Notes under the pieces: model-generated
The model's database searches: none
Told to the model about the DNA's origin: nothing
What the model saw: the letters and a program-made list of their open reading frames with translations, nothing else
From: a virus
DNA: 64,000 nucleotides
IMG/VR virus record: IMGVR_UViG_3300025949_000019
Location: 1 to 64,000 of that record
Direction: 5' to 3' (one strand)
Program-made: the position numbers and the translations under genes
Shown here: positions 2 through 21,292 of the stretch, piece after piece
Numbering within the stretch: position 1 is the first letter of the stretch
Layout of the letters: the number at the start of each line of letters is the position of its first letter

Positions 2-142
2 CATTTGATCAAGCATCATTTGCCAAAAGAAAAGCACCAAGAGATATATAATAAGTTCGTAGAAGCTACAAGTAAAATGAAGAATGTCGATTCTACAAAA
101 GCAGTCGCACATTTGAAGAAAGAATTGAATACGCACGATTAG
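2..142 (+). CDS. C-terminal end of an unidentified protein
   Basis: An open frame enters from the left edge and ends at TAG (140-142), giving 46 residues that are Lys/His rich and end in KKELNTHD. The start and most of the protein lie outside the window, so no function can be given. The last codons and the stop form the acceptor stem and position 8-9 of the following tRNA, so gene and tRNA overlap by 10 bases. The frame is the only one open over this stretch. Confidence 0.6.
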   Translation, partial: HLIKHHLPKEKHQEIYNKFVEATSKMKNVDSTKAVAHLKKELNTHD

Positions 143-207
143 TTCATTGGTAGAACGCCGCTTCGACAAGGCGGATGTAAGAGGTCCGATTCCTTTATCG
201 TGCACCA
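133..207 (+). tRNA. tRNA with anticodon GAC (Val-like)
   Basis: Full cloverleaf: acceptor GCACGAT (133-139) pairs exactly with ATCGTGC (197-203), D stem GTTC/GAAC, anticodon stem CCGCT/GGCGG, T arm AGAGG/CCTTT with loop TCCGATT, discriminator A and encoded CCA. The anticodon loop TCGACAA (163-169) gives GAC, the Val reading of GUC, but position 33 is C instead of the near-universal U, so the decoding identity is uncertain. The acceptor stem overlaps the end of the preceding gene. Confidence 0.8.
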
Positions 208-235
208 GAATTTATAAAATAACTATGGAGATATT

Positions 236-499
236 ATGCAAGCACTTGGAAAGAATGTTCTTTTGAAGAAAGTAGAAGGTGAGCAGCAAATCGGTTCAAT
301 CTTGCTGCCGGGTCAACAAAATCAAAACCGTGGAGAGATTGTTTCTGTTGGAAATGATGTGCCTGCTGGTTTGTTTGCTGTCGGTGACCATGTGATCTAC
401 AACGGCGGAAAGCATGTTGCAGTTGATGGAAAGACATTCATTGCATCTGCATATGAAGATTTGCTTGTCAAAGTGAAAGACGCTGGAAACGTAAGCTAG
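236..499 (+). CDS. groES: GroES-like co-chaperonin
   Basis: An 87-residue GroES-family co-chaperonin, the functional counterpart of T4 gp31, which caps host GroEL so that the major capsid protein can fold. The sequence starts MQALGKNVLLKK, contains a mobile-loop region (about residues 15-32, GEQQIGSILLPGQQNQNRGE) and the typical GxVxSVG and VGDHVIY segments, and ends with the EDLLVKV strand. It is slightly shorter than bacterial GroES (about 97 residues). GGAG at 227-230 is a good ribosome site. Its last codons overlap the downstream tRNA-Met. The assignment is firm; specificity for the phage capsid is inferred. Confidence 0.9.
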   Translation: MQALGKNVLLKKVEGEQQIGSILLPGQQNQNRGEIVSVGNDVPAGLFAVGDHVIYNGGKHVAVDGKTFIASAYEDLLVKVKDAGNVS

Positions 500-559
500 T
501 CGGTAAACTGTTGCTCTCATACGGCAAACTCTCGGGTTCGATTCCCGGCGTTTCTACCA
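485..559 (+). tRNA. tRNA with anticodon CAT (Met or lysidine-Ile)
   Basis: Acceptor GGAAACG (485-491) pairs with CGTTTCT (549-555) with one G-U. D arm AGCT/AACT has one mismatch and its loop contains GG, anticodon stem TTGCT/GGCAA closes the loop CTCATAC, and the T arm is TCGGG/CCCGG around TTCGATT. Discriminator A and CCA are encoded. CAT may read AUG, or AUA if C34 is modified to lysidine. The first 15 bases lie inside the 3' end of groES. Confidence 0.9.
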
Positions 560-581
560 ACTCTAAGGATACACACACATC

Positions 582-815
582 ATGGCTCGAAAATGTTGGA
601 GTACGACCGCGTCTGTTGAAGTTGACATTTTCCTAGACGATCTAGACGATGAAACATTGCTAGAAGAAGTCGAAGCAAGAAATCTAGGAATTGTTTCGAT
701 GACTGCTGCTGGTTGGTGCAATGCACTTGCGGACGCATATCAACTAGGAGACACGAAAAAAATCTACGAGTTGAACAAAAAACTGATCGATGAAGTGACC
801 GGCAGGATCATTTAA
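582..815 (+). CDS. Small acidic protein of unknown function
   Basis: A 77-residue protein with an acidic first half (VDIFLDDLDDETLLEEVE) and a C-terminal helix rich in Lys and Glu. Short phage proteins of this acidic type are often seen next to GroES-type genes, but I do not recognise a family with a known role. AGGA at 565-568 lies upstream of the ATG. It is the last protein gene before the 2-kb RNA region, and a strong promoter begins 50 bases after its stop. Confidence 0.7.
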   Translation: MARKCWSTTASVEVDIFLDDLDDETLLEEVEARNLGIVSMTAAGWCNALADAYQLGDTKKIYELNKKLIDEVTGRII

Positions 816-866
816 TTTGGCAATCGATCCCAAGTCGGCAATAGAAAAATACAATAGAAAAAAAGC

Positions 867-895
867 TTGACACGGACACTAGATATCCGTATAAT
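867..895 (+). promoter_or_regulatory. Consensus sigma70 promoter for the large RNA region
   Basis: TTGACA (867-872), 17-bp spacer, TATAAT (890-895): a perfect match to the primary-sigma consensus. An A-rich stretch (841-864) upstream could act as an UP element. The spacer carries an inverted repeat, CGGA (873-876 region) and TCCG (886-889), which could be an operator. Transcription should start near 902 and run into a region with no protein gene. Confidence 0.85.
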
Positions 896-901
896 GTGTT
901 C

Positions 902-1384
902 TGTTGTTTGAGATGCGGTTTGCCTGCGAGGGAAACCAATCCTACAAGTAGGGAAAGAATCGCATCATCTTTGTTATGATATCGCTAATGGCTACTATAA
1001 TCTAACGGCTAGAGGTGACGTACCGATGAAGTAAGATACTAAACTCTATTTAAATCTTATATACATTGTGATGTTTTACGGGTCTAACCAGCCCGGGAGA
1101 TAAGTCCGATGTTCAGCTATTAGGGTTGAAATAGGATGTAGCGTGGAGCGAAAGCATTGAAGCGCACTTCGAAATTGGAATTATACTTAGTGTAACTTGA
1201 AACGTAGTACCCGTCCCTCGGATGCCACAAGTGTCTGAGGGACATTTGAAAAGCAATTTTGAAATACAGGTTGCTTTTCAAATTTGATTCTACTGTGTGA
1301 ACGTGTGGCTGAGTAAAACTATCGGCGGGTCTGAAGGCCCGAAACGTTGCCGAGCGTTCTAAGGTAGAATCATTTTATTTTTTT
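902..1384 (+). ncRNA. Structured non-coding RNA, first domain
   Basis: About 480 bases with no credible reading frame, beginning at the expected start site of the consensus promoter. Helices seen directly: GATGCG 912-917 with CGCATC 961-966, a CCTAC/GTAGG hairpin at 941-952, GTCCCTC/GAGGGAC at 1213-1243, a perfect 12-bp stem at 1245-1256/1271-1282, and GATTCTAC 1286-1293 with GTAGAATC 1364-1371. The last helix is followed by a T-rich run (1372-1384) that may terminate or punctuate transcription. A CGGC/GCCG helix (1323-1352) is nested in it. It may be a separate RNA or the 5' part of a single RNA reaching 2786. Function unknown. Confidence 0.7.
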
Positions 1385-1385
1385 C

Positions 1386-1462
1386 GCGAGGGTAGCTCAG
1401 AGAAAGAGCAGCGGCCTTAATTGAGCCGAAGGTCGGTGGTTCGATTCCATCCCCTCGCACCA
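1386..1462 (+). tRNA. Unusual tRNA with enlarged anticodon loop
   Basis: Acceptor GCGAGGG/CCCTCGC is fully paired, D stem GCTC/GAGC and T arm GGTGG/CCATC with TTCGATT are normal, and A plus CCA are encoded. Two parts are abnormal. The D loop AGAGAAA lacks the conserved GG, and the anticodon arm (1411-1429) is two bases too long: CGGC/GCCG closes a nine-base loop CTTAATTGA. The anticodon could be AAT (Ile) if C1416 and A1424 stack as a mismatch, or TAA (Leu) if U33 is 1417. It sits between the two large RNA domains. Confidence 0.7.
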
Positions 1463-1470
1463 GATTTATA

Positions 1471-1557
1471 GAAGAAAAGCAATGAAACTCTAAAACAGAG
1501 TTTCGTATTTTTCATAGCAGCCACTATGATGAATTGATTTGGAGATTGCTTTTCTTC
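1471..1557 (+). ncRNA. Three-way hairpin junction between RNA domains
   Basis: A perfect 13-bp stem joins 1471-1483 to 1545-1557 and encloses two further perfect hairpins: GAAACTCT/AGAGTTTC (1484-1504) and TCATAG/CTATGA (1512-1528). The AGAAAAGCAAT core of the outer stem also occurs in the 1245-1282 hairpin. Such a long uninterrupted duplex is a plausible RNase III processing site separating the tRNA from the second large RNA; that role is inference. Confidence 0.6.
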
Positions 1558-1582
1558 TTCGTTCTTTAACATTCGATTTACA

Positions 1583-2786
1583 AGAATTAACGGGGTGTGT
1601 GAACTCCGTCATGTGGCGAAAGCTGCATGAAAAGATACTCTGTAGCGATACAGGAAAGCGGGAAGCTTACATTACCGCGGGCTAGCTAACTATCCTCAAT
1701 TACACAAGCCTCAGTCCACGGGTGACCGTGATATCGGTGAAAAGAGCGCCGGTATGAAGTATGACGTTGAGAGTAGGGAAAGAGTCATGACTTAAACGCT
1801 TCACCTTCGGGTGAAGGAACGTTAGTCGTGAAAGAAGAAACAGGTGGTGCTGTCTCTCCTACAAAACCATTCAATCAGTACAGAGACTAAAGGGTAGCGT
1901 AATATCTTCGAGACTAGCACTCTAGAGGGATTATGCAGAATAATTGGTTTGTGGCCTATGCGAAAGCTGTGATGGACATGTACCGAGAAATTCGATTGAG
2001 TAGTCCTTGGCGGGATGAAAAATACGTGGCGAGTGGCATATTGGAGACCAAAAGTTTCTGACACCACTGGATGCGCTCGTCGCAGTAAGTTCATAGATGC
2101 TCTAAGGTAGAGCGTTTCCCTTTCATGGAAAATGCAGTTGGTTCGATCCCAACCTATATTACAAAAATGCAAAGACGCATCCTGTGTTAGTGCCAACAGA
2201 AGAAAATGGCTTAAATCTGCACGTCTTCGGACGAATGCAGGAATTCGAAACTCGCAAGGTCTAGAATTTTGATGTGGAAGCGCACGGTTGGGATTAGCGT
2301 CCCTTAACAGCCCGCAAGGTTGACGGTAGCAGAAACGTCGAGTAGCCTAACACGAAGCTTGAAATGCAACAAGCCTAAAAATGCAGCCATGAAGACATAG
2401 CTATTTGATAGCTGGACAAGTCAGAAAGGTAAGGGGTAGCACCCGAATCCGTAACCTGAACAAAAGAGTCTTCACAAAAACGTATAGTCTCAGCGTTTAT
2501 AAGATTTCATTAGTATTCGCCGTGGTGCCATACAAACATATTGACATTTGAGTTTGCAACTAGGCGATTAGCGTTGGACCGGTTATGATGAATCGTACAA
2601 GCACGGTGAATGCTAATGAAATTTTCATAGTTCGTTTTGTAGAGCATAGTCCGTTGTGGTTATCTAAAGACAAGCCTAGATGAGGCGTAATTGAAAAGTC
2701 GATGTGTACAGTCGATCTGATCAGGCAACCTTGCTATGCTGCACAAAGCGAATTGCGTAACCGCTCAGGGTAATGGCGATAATTCT
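1583..2786 (+). ncRNA. Giant structured non-coding RNA, about 1.2 kb
   Basis: No credible gene is present on either strand. Its ends pair: AGAATTA (1583-1589) with TAATTCT (2780-2786). Inside are many canonical motifs: stems capped by GAAA (1610-1629), GCGA (CTGTA/TACAG, 1640-1653), GTGA (CACGG/CCGTG, 1717-1730) and two UUCG loops (1800-1815, 2217-2240). There is also TGAAGAC 2390-2396 with GTCTTCA 2468-2474, AGCTA/TAGCT (2399-2413), and a roughly 20-bp helix linking 2504-2524 to 2602-2622. A tRNA-like domain is inserted at 2085-2162. Size, phage origin and association with tRNAs recall the GOLLD and ROOL classes of ornate large RNAs, but membership cannot be shown by eye. Confidence 0.75.
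2085..2162 (+). ncRNA. tRNA-Glu-like domain embedded in the large RNA
   Basis: D arm GCTC/GAGC with loop TAAGGTA, anticodon stem TTTCC/GGAAA with loop CTTTCAT (anticodon TTC), and T arm GTTGG/CCAAC with TTCGATC are all perfect. There is no CCA end. Instead the acceptor is ATAG/CTAT, an asymmetric internal loop, then GTAA (2085-2088) with TTAC (2159-2162). It continues into GGATGCG (2069-2075) with CGCATCC (2176-2182). So the cloverleaf is closed into the body of the larger RNA rather than having a free 3' end. Confidence 0.75.
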
Positions 2787-2789
2787 CCC

Positions 2790-2798
2790 GATAAATAG
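2790..2798 (+). promoter_or_regulatory. T4-like late promoter motif
   Basis: GATAAATAG resembles the T4 late promoter TATAAATA and repeats a motif seen before many late genes in this window. It lies at the 3' edge of the large RNA, 90 bases before the next small gene and the tRNA cluster, and would transcribe them. Confidence 0.45.
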
Positions 2799-2887
2799 AT
2801 GATTCTTGGAAGCTGTTGGAACATACAGGAACTCCACGGATAACGCGCGTATCTAGAACAAAATTATCTGTATCATCGGCGGTTACA

Positions 2888-3046
2888 ATGAATTTCAGAA
2901 AGATCGTAATTGCAATCGTAATTCTAGCAACATTGTTGTTTGTTTTGCAGTCTGCAACTGATAAATATGTGACGGATCATCTTTGCCAGCAAGGTGAACG
3001 ATATCGTGTTACATTCTATGGTTACGAATGCATAAATAAGCAATAA
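2888..3046 (+). CDS. Small membrane or exported protein, unknown
   Basis: A 52-residue protein with a positively charged N-terminus (MNFRK) followed by a hydrophobic helix of about 18 residues (IVIAIVILATLLFVL), then a short polar tail with two cysteines (HLCQQG and YECINK). It could be an inner-membrane protein or an uncleaved signal-anchor. An upstream TTG (2816) would extend the frame, but the extension looks non-coding, so the ATG at 2888 was preferred. No strong ribosome site is present, so expression is uncertain. It sits 11 bases before tRNA-Ala. No family recognised. Confidence 0.5.
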   Translation: MNFRKIVIAIVILATLLFVLQSATDKYVTDHLCQQGERYRVTFYGYECINKQ

Positions 3047-3057
3047 GTGTTTTCATT

Positions 3058-3137
3058 GGGGATCGGGTCTGCCTGGCGTGGACACCGCACTTGCAATGCG
3101 GCTAATCAGAGGGGTTCGAGTCCCCTGTTCTCCACCA
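3058..3137 (+). tRNA. tRNA-Ala (TGC)
   Basis: Acceptor GGGGATC pairs with GTTCTCC with one G-U and one U-U mismatch. D stem GTCT/GGAC, anticodon stem CCGCA/TGCGG with loop CTTGCAA (anticodon TGC), T arm AGGGG/CCCCT with TTCGAGT. A and CCA are encoded. The variable region is longer than usual (about 8 bases). Confidence 0.85.
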
Positions 3138-3233
3138 ATTTCTAACAAGTTCCAAACCATCAAGCATGGTTCGGCGCGGGGATCACCGAGAGGACCCCAC
3201 AGGAGTATGCGAAAGTTACTAAAGATTACAAAT

Positions 3234-3308
3234 GCGGGCGTGGTCTAGTGGCTTGGGCCCCATCCTTCCAAGTTGGTGACGCGAGTTCGATTCTCGCCGT
3301 CCGCTCCA
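3234..3308 (+). tRNA. tRNA-Gly (TCC)
   Basis: Acceptor GCGGGCG/CGTCCGC, anticodon stem CCATC/GTTGG with one mismatch, loop CTTCCAA (anticodon TCC), T arm GCGAG/CTCGC with TTCGATT, discriminator T and encoded CCA. The stretch before it (3138-3233) has a perfect ACCAT/ATGGT hairpin but no gene. Confidence 0.9.
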
Positions 3309-3339
3309 AAACAGTAATAAAAGGCTCAGTATAGGCCGA

Positions 3340-3386
3340 CGCAATCAGAACAAAACGTCCATGGACATACGCTTGTTCTGATTGCG
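3340..3386 (+). repeat. Perfect 14-bp inverted repeat with a nested palindrome
   Basis: CGCAATCAGAACAA (3340-3353) is the exact reverse complement of 3373-3386, and the loop contains the palindrome GTCCATGGAC. No T run follows, so it is not a typical terminator. It lies between two tRNA genes and could be an RNA-processing hairpin or a protein-binding site. Confidence 0.7.
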
Positions 3387-3460
3387 ATTATAGATTTATA
3401 GTCAGACCTCGTTATCATAAGAGGATACAAAAACTCAACTGATCTGGCTTTAGTTACAAG

Positions 3461-3534
3461 TGCGCGGTGGTGTAACAGCAACACGCTAGGCTCATAACCT
3501 TGAACTCTGGGTGCGACTCCCGGCTGCGCTTCCA
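3461..3534 (+). tRNA. tRNA-Met (CAT), possibly initiator-like
   Basis: Acceptor TGCGCGG/CTGCGCT pairs at six of seven positions, with 1-72 unpaired (T-T), the feature typical of initiator tRNA. D stem GTGT/ACAC, anticodon arm CTAGG/CCTTG with loop CTCATAA, T arm CTGGG/CCCGG with TGCGACT, and CCA encoded. The 11-24 pair is T-A, as in elongators, so initiator identity is not settled. Confidence 0.85.
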
Positions 3535-3570
3535 TCATTTCAATATACATAAAAGGGAGAATAAAACAAT

Positions 3571-3822
3571 ATGGTTCTATTAACTTCTTGGGTTGCAATT
3601 GGAATGGTGCTGATCGCACTAGATGGCGGTCAATTAGATCAAAAAGCATTTGCATCAAACAAAGTCTTTATGTCTGAAGCTGATTGTCAAAAGGAAGTTG
3701 ATGGAGCAATTCCATTGTTTGACAGAGATGTAGAGGCTGGAAAGCTTGGCGGTTATGTCCTAAAATGTGTTCAAGTAGAATTGCGTCCTCCGCTGCCTAC
3801 CAAGAAAGAAAAAAAGAAGTAA
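3571..3822 (+). CDS. Small exported or membrane protein, unknown
   Basis: An 83-residue protein. The N-terminus is hydrophobic (VLLTSWVAIGMVLIAL, residues 2-17) and could be a signal peptide or anchor. The remainder has two cysteines (ADCQKEV and VLKCVQV) that could form a disulfide in the periplasm, and the C-terminus is a Lys-rich tail. GGGAG at 3553-3557 is a good ribosome site. It lies between tRNA-Met and tRNA-Gly. Cysteine-spaced small exported phage proteins of this type have no known function. Confidence 0.7.
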   Translation: MVLLTSWVAIGMVLIALDGGQLDQKAFASNKVFMSEADCQKEVDGAIPLFDRDVEAGKLGGYVLKCVQVELRPPLPTKKEKKK

Positions 3823-3835
3823 TACGCGCACCGAT

Positions 3836-3911
3836 GCGGCGGTAGTTCAGTTGGTAGAATAGGAGCTTGCCAAGTTTCAGGTCACGGGTTCGATCCCCGT
3901 TCGCCGCTCCA
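3836..3911 (+). tRNA. tRNA-Gly (GCC)
   Basis: Acceptor GCGGCGG/TCGCCGC, D arm GTTC/GAAT with loop AGTTGGTA, anticodon arm GGAGC/GTTTC (two G-U) with loop TTGCCAA (anticodon GCC), T arm ACGGG/CCCGT with TTCGATC, discriminator T and encoded CCA. Confidence 0.9.
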
Positions 3912-20230: not shown

Positions 20231-20239
20231 CATAAATAG
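20231..20239 (+). promoter_or_regulatory. Late-promoter motif joined to a -10 box before the tmRNA
   Basis: CATAAATAG (T4-late-like) runs directly into TATAAT (20240-20245), which could serve as a sigma70 -10 element without a good -35. Either would start the tmRNA precursor near 20248-20252. Confidence 0.5.
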
Positions 20240-20251
20240 TATAATGGTGTA

Positions 20252-20550
20252 GCTGTAAAGAATGGTTGTAAACTTGCATGAAAGAACGCTCGGAACACGC
20301 GGGTTCGACTCCCGCCATCTCCACCAAAGAATTTTCGCATTAGCGGCAGCCAATAGAAGAAGGCCGGGGAATATAAGCTGAGAATTCTTTAGTGGGGATG
20401 TAACGGATATCGACTCTGAGTAAGTATGTCATATAAGCAACCCGTGAATCGCTCACGTTAAACAGAGAAAAAACAAAATTTAATCGCAAATGATGAAAAT
20501 TTTGATCTAGCTCTTGCTGCGTAATTAGCAGTAAGGTAAGCCGGGGTTTT
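20252..20550 (+). ncRNA. ssrA: Circularly permuted (two-piece) tmRNA
   Basis: The 3' (acceptor) piece comes first: a T arm GCGGG/CCCGC around TTCGACT (20299-20315), CATCTCC (20316-20322), A and CCA (20324-20326), closely like the 3' end of bacterial tmRNA. The 5' piece follows at 20394 with GGGGATG, which pairs with the upstream CATCTCC to complete the acceptor stem. A 67-base spacer separates them, and its AAGAATT (20327-20333) pairs with 20383-20389. Downstream are the resume codon GCA (20486), a tag frame ending in TAA, and the helix CTTGCTGC/GCAGTAAG around the stop. The P2 helix CTGAG/CTCGG also forms between the pieces. tmRNA frees stalled ribosomes and tags the protein for degradation. 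Confidence 0.9.
20486..20524 (+). other. tmRNA proteolysis-tag reading frame
   Basis: GCA resume codon followed by AAT GAT GAA and onwards, giving the tag ANDENFDLALAA then TAA. With the alanine carried by the tmRNA the full tag would be AANDENFDLALAA. The hydrophobic LAA end is the signal read by ClpXP-type proteases in proteobacteria. Confidence 0.9.
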
Positions 20551-20592
20551 GGGAGATGAACCTAGCAACAGAATCATCTCCCATTTTCATTT
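20551..20592 (+). terminator. Terminator of the tmRNA precursor
   Basis: GGGAGATGA (20551-20559) and TCATCTCCC (20574-20582) form a perfect 9-bp stem, followed by ATTTTCATTT. Confidence 0.85.
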
Positions 20593-20614
20593 ATACGGAG
20601 AGAAAGGCTATTCA

Positions 20615-21292
20615 ATGCAAAAAACGATGATTTGTTTAATCCTAGACCGCAGCGGTTCAATGGCAGGTCTACAGCGTGATGTGATTGGTGGTGTGAATAC
20701 ATTTATCGCAGAACAAAAGAAACTTCCAGACCCAGCAATTCTAACTGCGGTCCGTTTCGATTCAAATGGTTTTGGTTATGGTAATCTCAATACAGTAAAT
20801 ATTGAGCGTTTCATTTCTATGAAAAATCTTCAAGAAGTAAATTCCCTGACTGAAAGTGATTTCGTGCCTCGTGGCGGTACTCCATTGTTGGATGCAATTG
20901 GAGAAACCATCCTGAAGCTTGATCATGATTGGCAGGAATATCATCCCGATAAATGCATCGTCGTGATCTATACTGATGGTCAAGAAAACTCGTCAGTCAA
21001 GTTCACAAGGCCGCAGATCAAACAATTGATCGAAGCACGTCAGGGAACCGGAAAGTGGGCATTCCTATTCCTAGGTGCAAACATCGATGCAGTTGGTGAA
21101 GCCACTTCGATGGGAATCTGGGCGCAGAATGCAGCTCAGTACACAAATGATGGTATTGGTCTTCGAGCAGCATATTCAACTACTTCAGCAACAGTCTCAG
21201 CAATGAGGTCAACTGGCTCAACAATGGCTGATTGGGGTGGAGAAATCAAAGCTGCTATTGAAAAAACAGAGGAAAAGGCAGACAGCAAGTAA
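20615..21292 (+). CDS. von Willebrand factor A domain protein
   Basis: A 225-residue vWA protein. The MIDAS metal site is visible: DRSGSM (residues 10-15), a conserved Thr in RGGTPLLDA (about 88) and VIYTDGQEN (about 122). It binds partner proteins through a metal ion. Phage vWA proteins of this size are usually stand-alone and of unknown target, sometimes linked to MoxR-type AAA ATPases. AAAGG and GGAG lie upstream of the ATG. The in-frame upstream extension falls inside the tmRNA terminator and was rejected. Confidence 0.85.
   Translation: MQKTMICLILDRSGSMAGLQRDVIGGVNTFIAEQKKLPDPAILTAVRFDSNGFGYGNLNTVNIERFISMKNLQEVNSLTESDFVPRGGTPLLDAIGETILKLDHDWQEYHPDKCIVVIYTDGQENSSVKFTRPQIKQLIEARQGTGKWAFLFLGANIDAVGEATSMGIWAQNAAQYTNDGIGLRAAYSTTSATVSAMRSTGSTMADWGGEIKAAIEKTEEKADSK

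Follow-up and report, generated by a model that had tools for sequence, protein, structure and literature searches.

A divergent GOLLD RNA preceded by an rrn-type boxA motif in the tRNA array of a probable T4-like phage

The window analyzed here covers the leading 64 kb of a viral record that is 97.5 kb long, contains T4-like tail, baseplate and terminase genes and probably derives from a T4-like myophage of a proteobacterium; the closest terminases, about 45% identical, belong to cyanophages and to Methylophilales and Pelagibacter phages. Seven tRNA genes form an array at the left end (133-3911), and between tRNA genes (236-499) lies a frame for a small protein that, judging from its translation, may be related to the GroES co-chaperonin. 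Further into the window, a permuted two-piece tmRNA (20234-20615) matches both tmRNA_permuted and alpha_tmRNA and carries the tag ANDENFDLALAA. The region of interest lies within the tRNA array, downstream of a sigma70 promoter that agrees with the consensus at every position, as the first-pass annotation had stated, and the same annotation rightly saw no credible ORF in 902-2790. It further proposed that this entire stretch is a single structured RNA with two tRNA structures, similar to the GOLLD and ROOL classes but larger, and representing either a new class or a new member of a known one. The features that we recognize are listed in Table 1.

Table 1. Features of the locus and copies of the three-way-junction element in other records (positions in the window unless a locus handle is given)
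Feature	Position	Strand	Remarks
sigma70 promoter TTGACA-17-TATAAT	867-895	+	12/12 match
Structured leader 'X', ORF-less	902-1384	+	10-bp end stem, then TTTTATTTTTTT
tRNA gene, called Ile (AAT)	1386-1462	+	CCA encoded; unusual anticodon arm
14-bp perfect stem 1470-1483/1545-1558 around terminator-like hairpin 1482-1506	1470-1558	+	just before boxA
rrn-type boxA motif CGTTCTTTAACA	1560-1571	+	912 nt ahead of GOLLD 3' anchor
GOLLD 5' domain, divergent	1590-2025	+	pseudoknot and ACAGGTGGTGCTGT
5' hairpin	1590-1596/1603-1609	+	loop 1597-1602 pairs with 1700-1705 ahead of AAGC
GOLLD 3' domain	2026-2503	+	RF02032 match 2026-2496; similarity limit ~2503
tRNA-Glu(UUC)-like insert	2093-2157	+	in GOLLD linker, 38 bits
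CGTATAGTCTCAGCG hairpin			GOLLD 3' limit placed after it
Structured tail 'Y'	2501-2755	+	helix 2501-2524/2602-2625; stem 2628-2640/2743-2755
Three-way-junction element	2760-2851	+	first 36 nt common to tRNA-array spacers of unrelated phages
Three-way-junction copy	L223:3001-3076		
Three-way-junction copy	L293:1502-1578		
Three-way-junction copy	L299:7842-7917	-	

GOLLD RNAs self-assemble into 14-mer cages and rise during lysis; we know of no function for these large RNA-only cages. Judged by its match to the family model, about half of the 1.9-kb stretch is a divergent copy of GOLLD and, because the class is thereby a known one, the locus adds a new member to it, not a new class. The Rfam model RF02032, which covers the 3' domain of GOLLD only, is matched end to end (model positions 1-416) with 174.3 bits in cmscan, above the gathering score of 150 bits (the E-value of 1e-48 applies to the short region searched), and the pairs formed across all 416 model positions are mostly standard. 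This match is the only one in the whole 97.5-kb record, and none of 14 control genomes contains any. Thus, the Rfam covariance-model search suggested in the first-pass annotation gave a significant GOLLD hit, and the suggested similarity to GOLLD holds; that to ROOL does not extend beyond the phage setting, the tRNA island and the large cage RNA, since neither ROOL nor OLE has an Rfam match in 902-2790 at E up to 5.

A DNA pattern built from the conserved GOLLD 3' end, which replaced an earlier pattern whose 8 loci were false, retrieved 80 viral loci, among which 75 records contain GOLLD at 260-340 bits; the same pattern detected none in the genome contigs of 50 genomes scanned. T4-like reference phages gave no GOLLD match either, and searches for relatives by AAA ATPase, terminase and SSB yielded nothing beyond a 14-kb contig of identical sequence and relatives at 40-50% that have no GOLLD. 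Local similarity to the 75 GOLLD-bearing viral contigs runs out at 2498-2510, and we therefore place the 3' end at approximately 2503. With the 5' limit discussed below, GOLLD spans about 1590-2503, or some 915 nt, so that neither the 1.9-kb length nor the claim of a size beyond that of GOLLD stands.

The 5' limit follows from a pseudoknot that is conserved in the family. In 20 non-redundant group-A GOLLDs, a 6-nt hairpin loop pairs with a strand located ~98 nt downstream, just before AAGC; 100% of the cells of this loop-strand helix are paired, with variation on both sides (UA/CG; GC/CG/AU), compared with 23-45% in slid controls for the whole structure. The window contains GGGGT[GTGTGA]ACTCC at 1592-1607 and TTACAC followed by AAGC at 1700-1705, with a spacing of 97 nt, and this motif with its AAGC tail occurs once on the + strand of the 64 kb and in none of 400 shuffles. 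Moreover, ACAGGTGGTGCTGT at 1839-1852 matches other GOLLDs (E 0.067) in the correct order, and the two landmarks together put the 5' end of GOLLD near 1590. Of two covariance models built from 5'-domain segments of other GOLLDs, R2 matches only at ACAGGTGGTGCTGT (E 0.54), whereas R1 has no match within 1590-2025 and yet recognizes a second GOLLD group, which indicates that the 5' domain here diverges more than those two groups do from each other. At the level of sequence, the 5' architecture is confirmed for the loop-strand pseudoknot alone and not for the whole domain fold. GOLLD 5' regions have been described as variable (PMC12286853), in line with this divergence.

Both of the initially reported tRNA structures are present, but only one is part of the GOLLD RNA, the other being a separate gene. 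The tRNA-Glu-like insert retains intact D, anticodon (UUC, 7-nt loop) and T arms, has an acceptor stem of only 4 bp and lacks CCA; it aligns to a part of the GOLLD model without assigned structure, the variable linker. In the GOLLD env-38, the linker faces the interior of the cage, and some linkers hold a tRNA (PMC12286853); furthermore, a mycobacterial GOLLD with a pseudo-tRNA inside has been described (PMC6582537), so a tRNA-like insert has precedent in the family. It is probably absent from the other 75 GOLLDs, given that their RF02032 matches extend over ~374-436 nt compared to 471 nt here. A tRNA-like domain that is unable to be a normal tRNA and resides in a linker facing the cage interior is relevant to what such cages contain. 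As for the separate tRNA gene, it has the anticodon loop TTAATTG with a C31-A39 mismatch and U37; an Ile AAT tRNA with these two features is rare or decayed in bacteria.

The low score, far under the 260-340 bits of the other GOLLDs, and the degenerate appearance of both tRNA-like parts could be taken to mean that the divergent sequence and the broken tRNA are functionless remnants of a decayed GOLLD. We consider this very improbable because every one of the 416 model positions is matched, mostly with standard pairs, the pseudoknot of the 5' domain is preserved, boxA sits where it should and the gene has a strong promoter upstream. Compared with the family at large, the locus has the full 3' domain, the loop-strand pseudoknot, a phage genome with adjacent tRNA genes, a linker that contains a tRNA, as some members do, and, once the insert is removed, a similar length; it differs in its score, in a barely recognizable 5' domain, in the proteobacterial type of its boxA, and in the extra structured leader and tail around it. 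Another difference is that no U-run directly follows GOLLD on the 3' side, so read-through into the tail is expected.

The claim of a structured region is borne out by comparison with dinucleotide shuffles on the + strand, where the leader (905-1384; z -4.9), the 5' part of GOLLD (1575-2025; z -3.4) and the tail (2504-2790; z -3.4) all exceed coding controls (-0.1 to -2.5); the genuine GOLLD 3' domain reaches a z of only -1.1, however, and such scores alone accordingly decide little. The long helix annotated at 2504-2524/2602-2622 is real, in the form of two 24-nt arms that are 88% complementary (Table 1). In contrast, the proposed closing helix 1583-1589/2780-2786 is a 7-bp AU-rich pairing of which ~100 are expected by chance in 1.9 kb, and its first arm immediately precedes the genuine 5' hairpin (1590-1609), its second being inside the three-way junction. 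These observations bear on the original idea that 902-2790 is a single uninterrupted ornate RNA of 1.9 kb that belongs to a new class, is held together by long-range helices and is used whole. A single promoter serves the region, all parts share the same strand, folding of both flanks exceeds that of shuffles and, without the usual U-run, the primary transcript probably reads through. Nevertheless, the middle of this putative RNA is a GOLLD bounded by conserved 5' and 3' limits of its own, the CCA-encoding tRNA gene would be excised, the closing helix is attributable to chance and overlaps two other elements, and 902-1384 closes with a terminator-like stem and a T-run. We thus regard a continuous RNA as a most unlikely solution and divide the stretch into GOLLD and a separate leader, tRNA gene and 3' tail.

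The leader has no Rfam family at E up to 5 and no convincing homologue, and its identification with a known RNA (group I intron, RNase P, ROOL) was rejected on the same Rfam result. A sequence within it, AGTAGGGAAAGARTC at 947-961, recurs in the GOLLD 5' domain at 1772-1786; a duplicated GOLLD 5' domain was also rejected, as this 15-nt motif is all that the two share, with neither an R1 match nor the pseudoknot motif in the leader. A 26-nt segment (1140-1165; GCGTGGAGCGAAAGCATTGAAGCGC hairpin) recurs without a mismatch in an intergenic hairpin from Rhizobium phage RHph_X2_24 (L222:3001-3026; E 3e-3); a scan for variants returned two contigs with non-matching flanks, probably coding, and left the match unexplained. 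The leader might constitute a structured RNA in its own right, so far undescribed and equipped with a promoter and a terminator, GOLLD being transcribed from another, phage-specific promoter. The folding score, the perfect promoter immediately upstream and the stem with a T-run at the end all favor this possibility, as does the precedent of phages ICP1 and K, which also make abundant unclassified large RNAs; however, no homologue with a matching structure was found, and no other promoter-like site is detectable between 867-895 and GOLLD, including 1384-1560. On balance, a separate leader RNA appears to us a tenable but less probable arrangement, and we prefer a single transcription unit that starts at the sigma70 promoter.

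BoxA is a signal that bacteria place before ribosomal RNA genes. The window contains its proteobacterial form, CGTTCTTTAACATT, at 1560, at the usual GOLLD site; the strict motif occurs three times in the 64 kb. Among 35 non-redundant GOLLDs, 31 have GTTCTTTGA/GTTCTTTAA 745-920 nt before the 3' anchor (being related to each other, these do not represent independent events). Nine windows of equal size located further upstream gave counts of 0-2, and shuffles averaged 0.1 (maximum 2). Most of the boxA-bearing GOLLDs compared resemble Bacteroidota-phage sequences and are mutually related, and in 26 of the 31 a -7 box of the Bacteroidota type, a loose pattern scored in AT-rich sequence, lies 15-56 nt, in most cases 24-56 nt, upstream of boxA. 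Of 20 Bacteroidota rrn leaders, 13 contain the same boxA motif 85-180 nt upstream of 16S; part of the Pseudomonadota rrn leaders contain boxA as CGCTCTTTAACA or CGTTCTTTAA, and leaders with an alphaproteobacterial-sized 16S (L267, L271) contain TGTTTGACA, not TTCTTTAACA. The motif before GOLLD thus combines a conserved place ahead of the RNA with a match to the rrn boxA of the phylum. Whereas other GOLLDs have boxA near the 5' end, here it is far from the promoter, ~660 nt downstream of the only good one and past two terminator-like hairpins. The link between boxA and GOLLD is apparently unreported, with no relevant joint mention in the literature searched (the original GOLLD papers fell outside it).

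Since the compared GOLLDs are homologous, any conserved leader sequence would seem enriched, and the motif could be merely a conserved piece of the GOLLD leader with no role in antitermination. We deem this rather unlikely: the motif equals the rrn boxA of the same phylum both in sequence and in its position soon after the promoter, it persists across two GOLLD groups whose 5' domains diverge, and its form in the window is the proteobacterial one.

BoxA recruits NusB and S10 and shields untranslated rrn transcripts from Rho, and CRISPR arrays likewise use antitermination (PMC12691694). The parallel with the rrn leaders served by NusB-S10-SuhB consists in a TTCTTTAACA/GTTCTTTGAAA motif ahead of a long untranslated RNA; the difference is that a phage RNA takes the place of rRNA. 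We propose that RNA polymerase would start at the 867-895 promoter and make the leader and tRNA-Ile, after which, in the manner of ribosomal RNA operons, the nascent RNA at boxA would recruit NusB-S10. Polymerase modified in this way could then make the long untranslated RNA without Rho termination, perhaps aiding its folding, and tRNA-Ile processing would free GOLLD from the leader. The released RNA may assemble into a hollow 14-mer cage with the tRNA-Glu-like linker directed inward, as seen for GOLLD env-38 by cryo-EM in vitro (PMC12286853). Taken as a whole, this account of boxA and cage, with a GOLLD core gene (~1590-2503) lying among the tRNA genes of a T4-like myophage, is in our view quite probable. 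If true, host ribosomal RNA machinery would be used to make, and perhaps to fold, a cage RNA; a leader with boxA points to a way in which the phage could produce this long untranslated RNA in quantity, is open to direct testing, and hints that the rRNA transcription and folding machinery is borrowed.

What is new at the locus is the divergent architecture, the association of boxA across GOLLDs and the three-way-junction element at the end of the region. The first 36 nt of this element match a tRNA-array spacer in Klebsiella phages (E 4e-3), and further copies occur in Acinetobacter phage ME3 and in a contig of 381 kb; every copy lies close to tRNA genes, outside coding sequence. Their common pattern is CGCTCaGG.TAATGGC...AATTCT.CCGATAAATA-P3-ACACGGTGYAAGWCC, and P3 shows compensatory changes between the Klebsiella phage, ME3 and 381-kb contig copies (CAACT/AGTTG, CATCC/GGATG and CATTC/GAATG). 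A covariance model from these three finds the window element with 29.5 bits and an E-value of 6e-5 in 64 kb, a value that cannot be read as independent, given that the window itself led to the three copies; the window element has P2 GGG/CCC in place of GGT/ACC and a different P3. No Rfam family matches at E up to 1 in one search or 0.5 in another, and the element is a candidate new small RNA of phage tRNA arrays. The broadest generalization, namely that GOLLDs are generally under rrn-type boxA antitermination and that phage tRNA arrays harbor an undescribed three-way-junction RNA, one form of which ends this transcript, has in our estimate an even chance of being correct. In Acinetobacter phage ME3, the three-way junction is part of a 1.4-kb unannotated stretch (L293:735-2106) that precedes a tRNA and is possibly another large RNA. 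At the start of the tRNA array of Klebsiella phage KP13-26, two segments (L223:589-691 and 732-836) match YrlA (Y RNA-like) with E-values of 6e-6 and 9e-4, below the gathering score.
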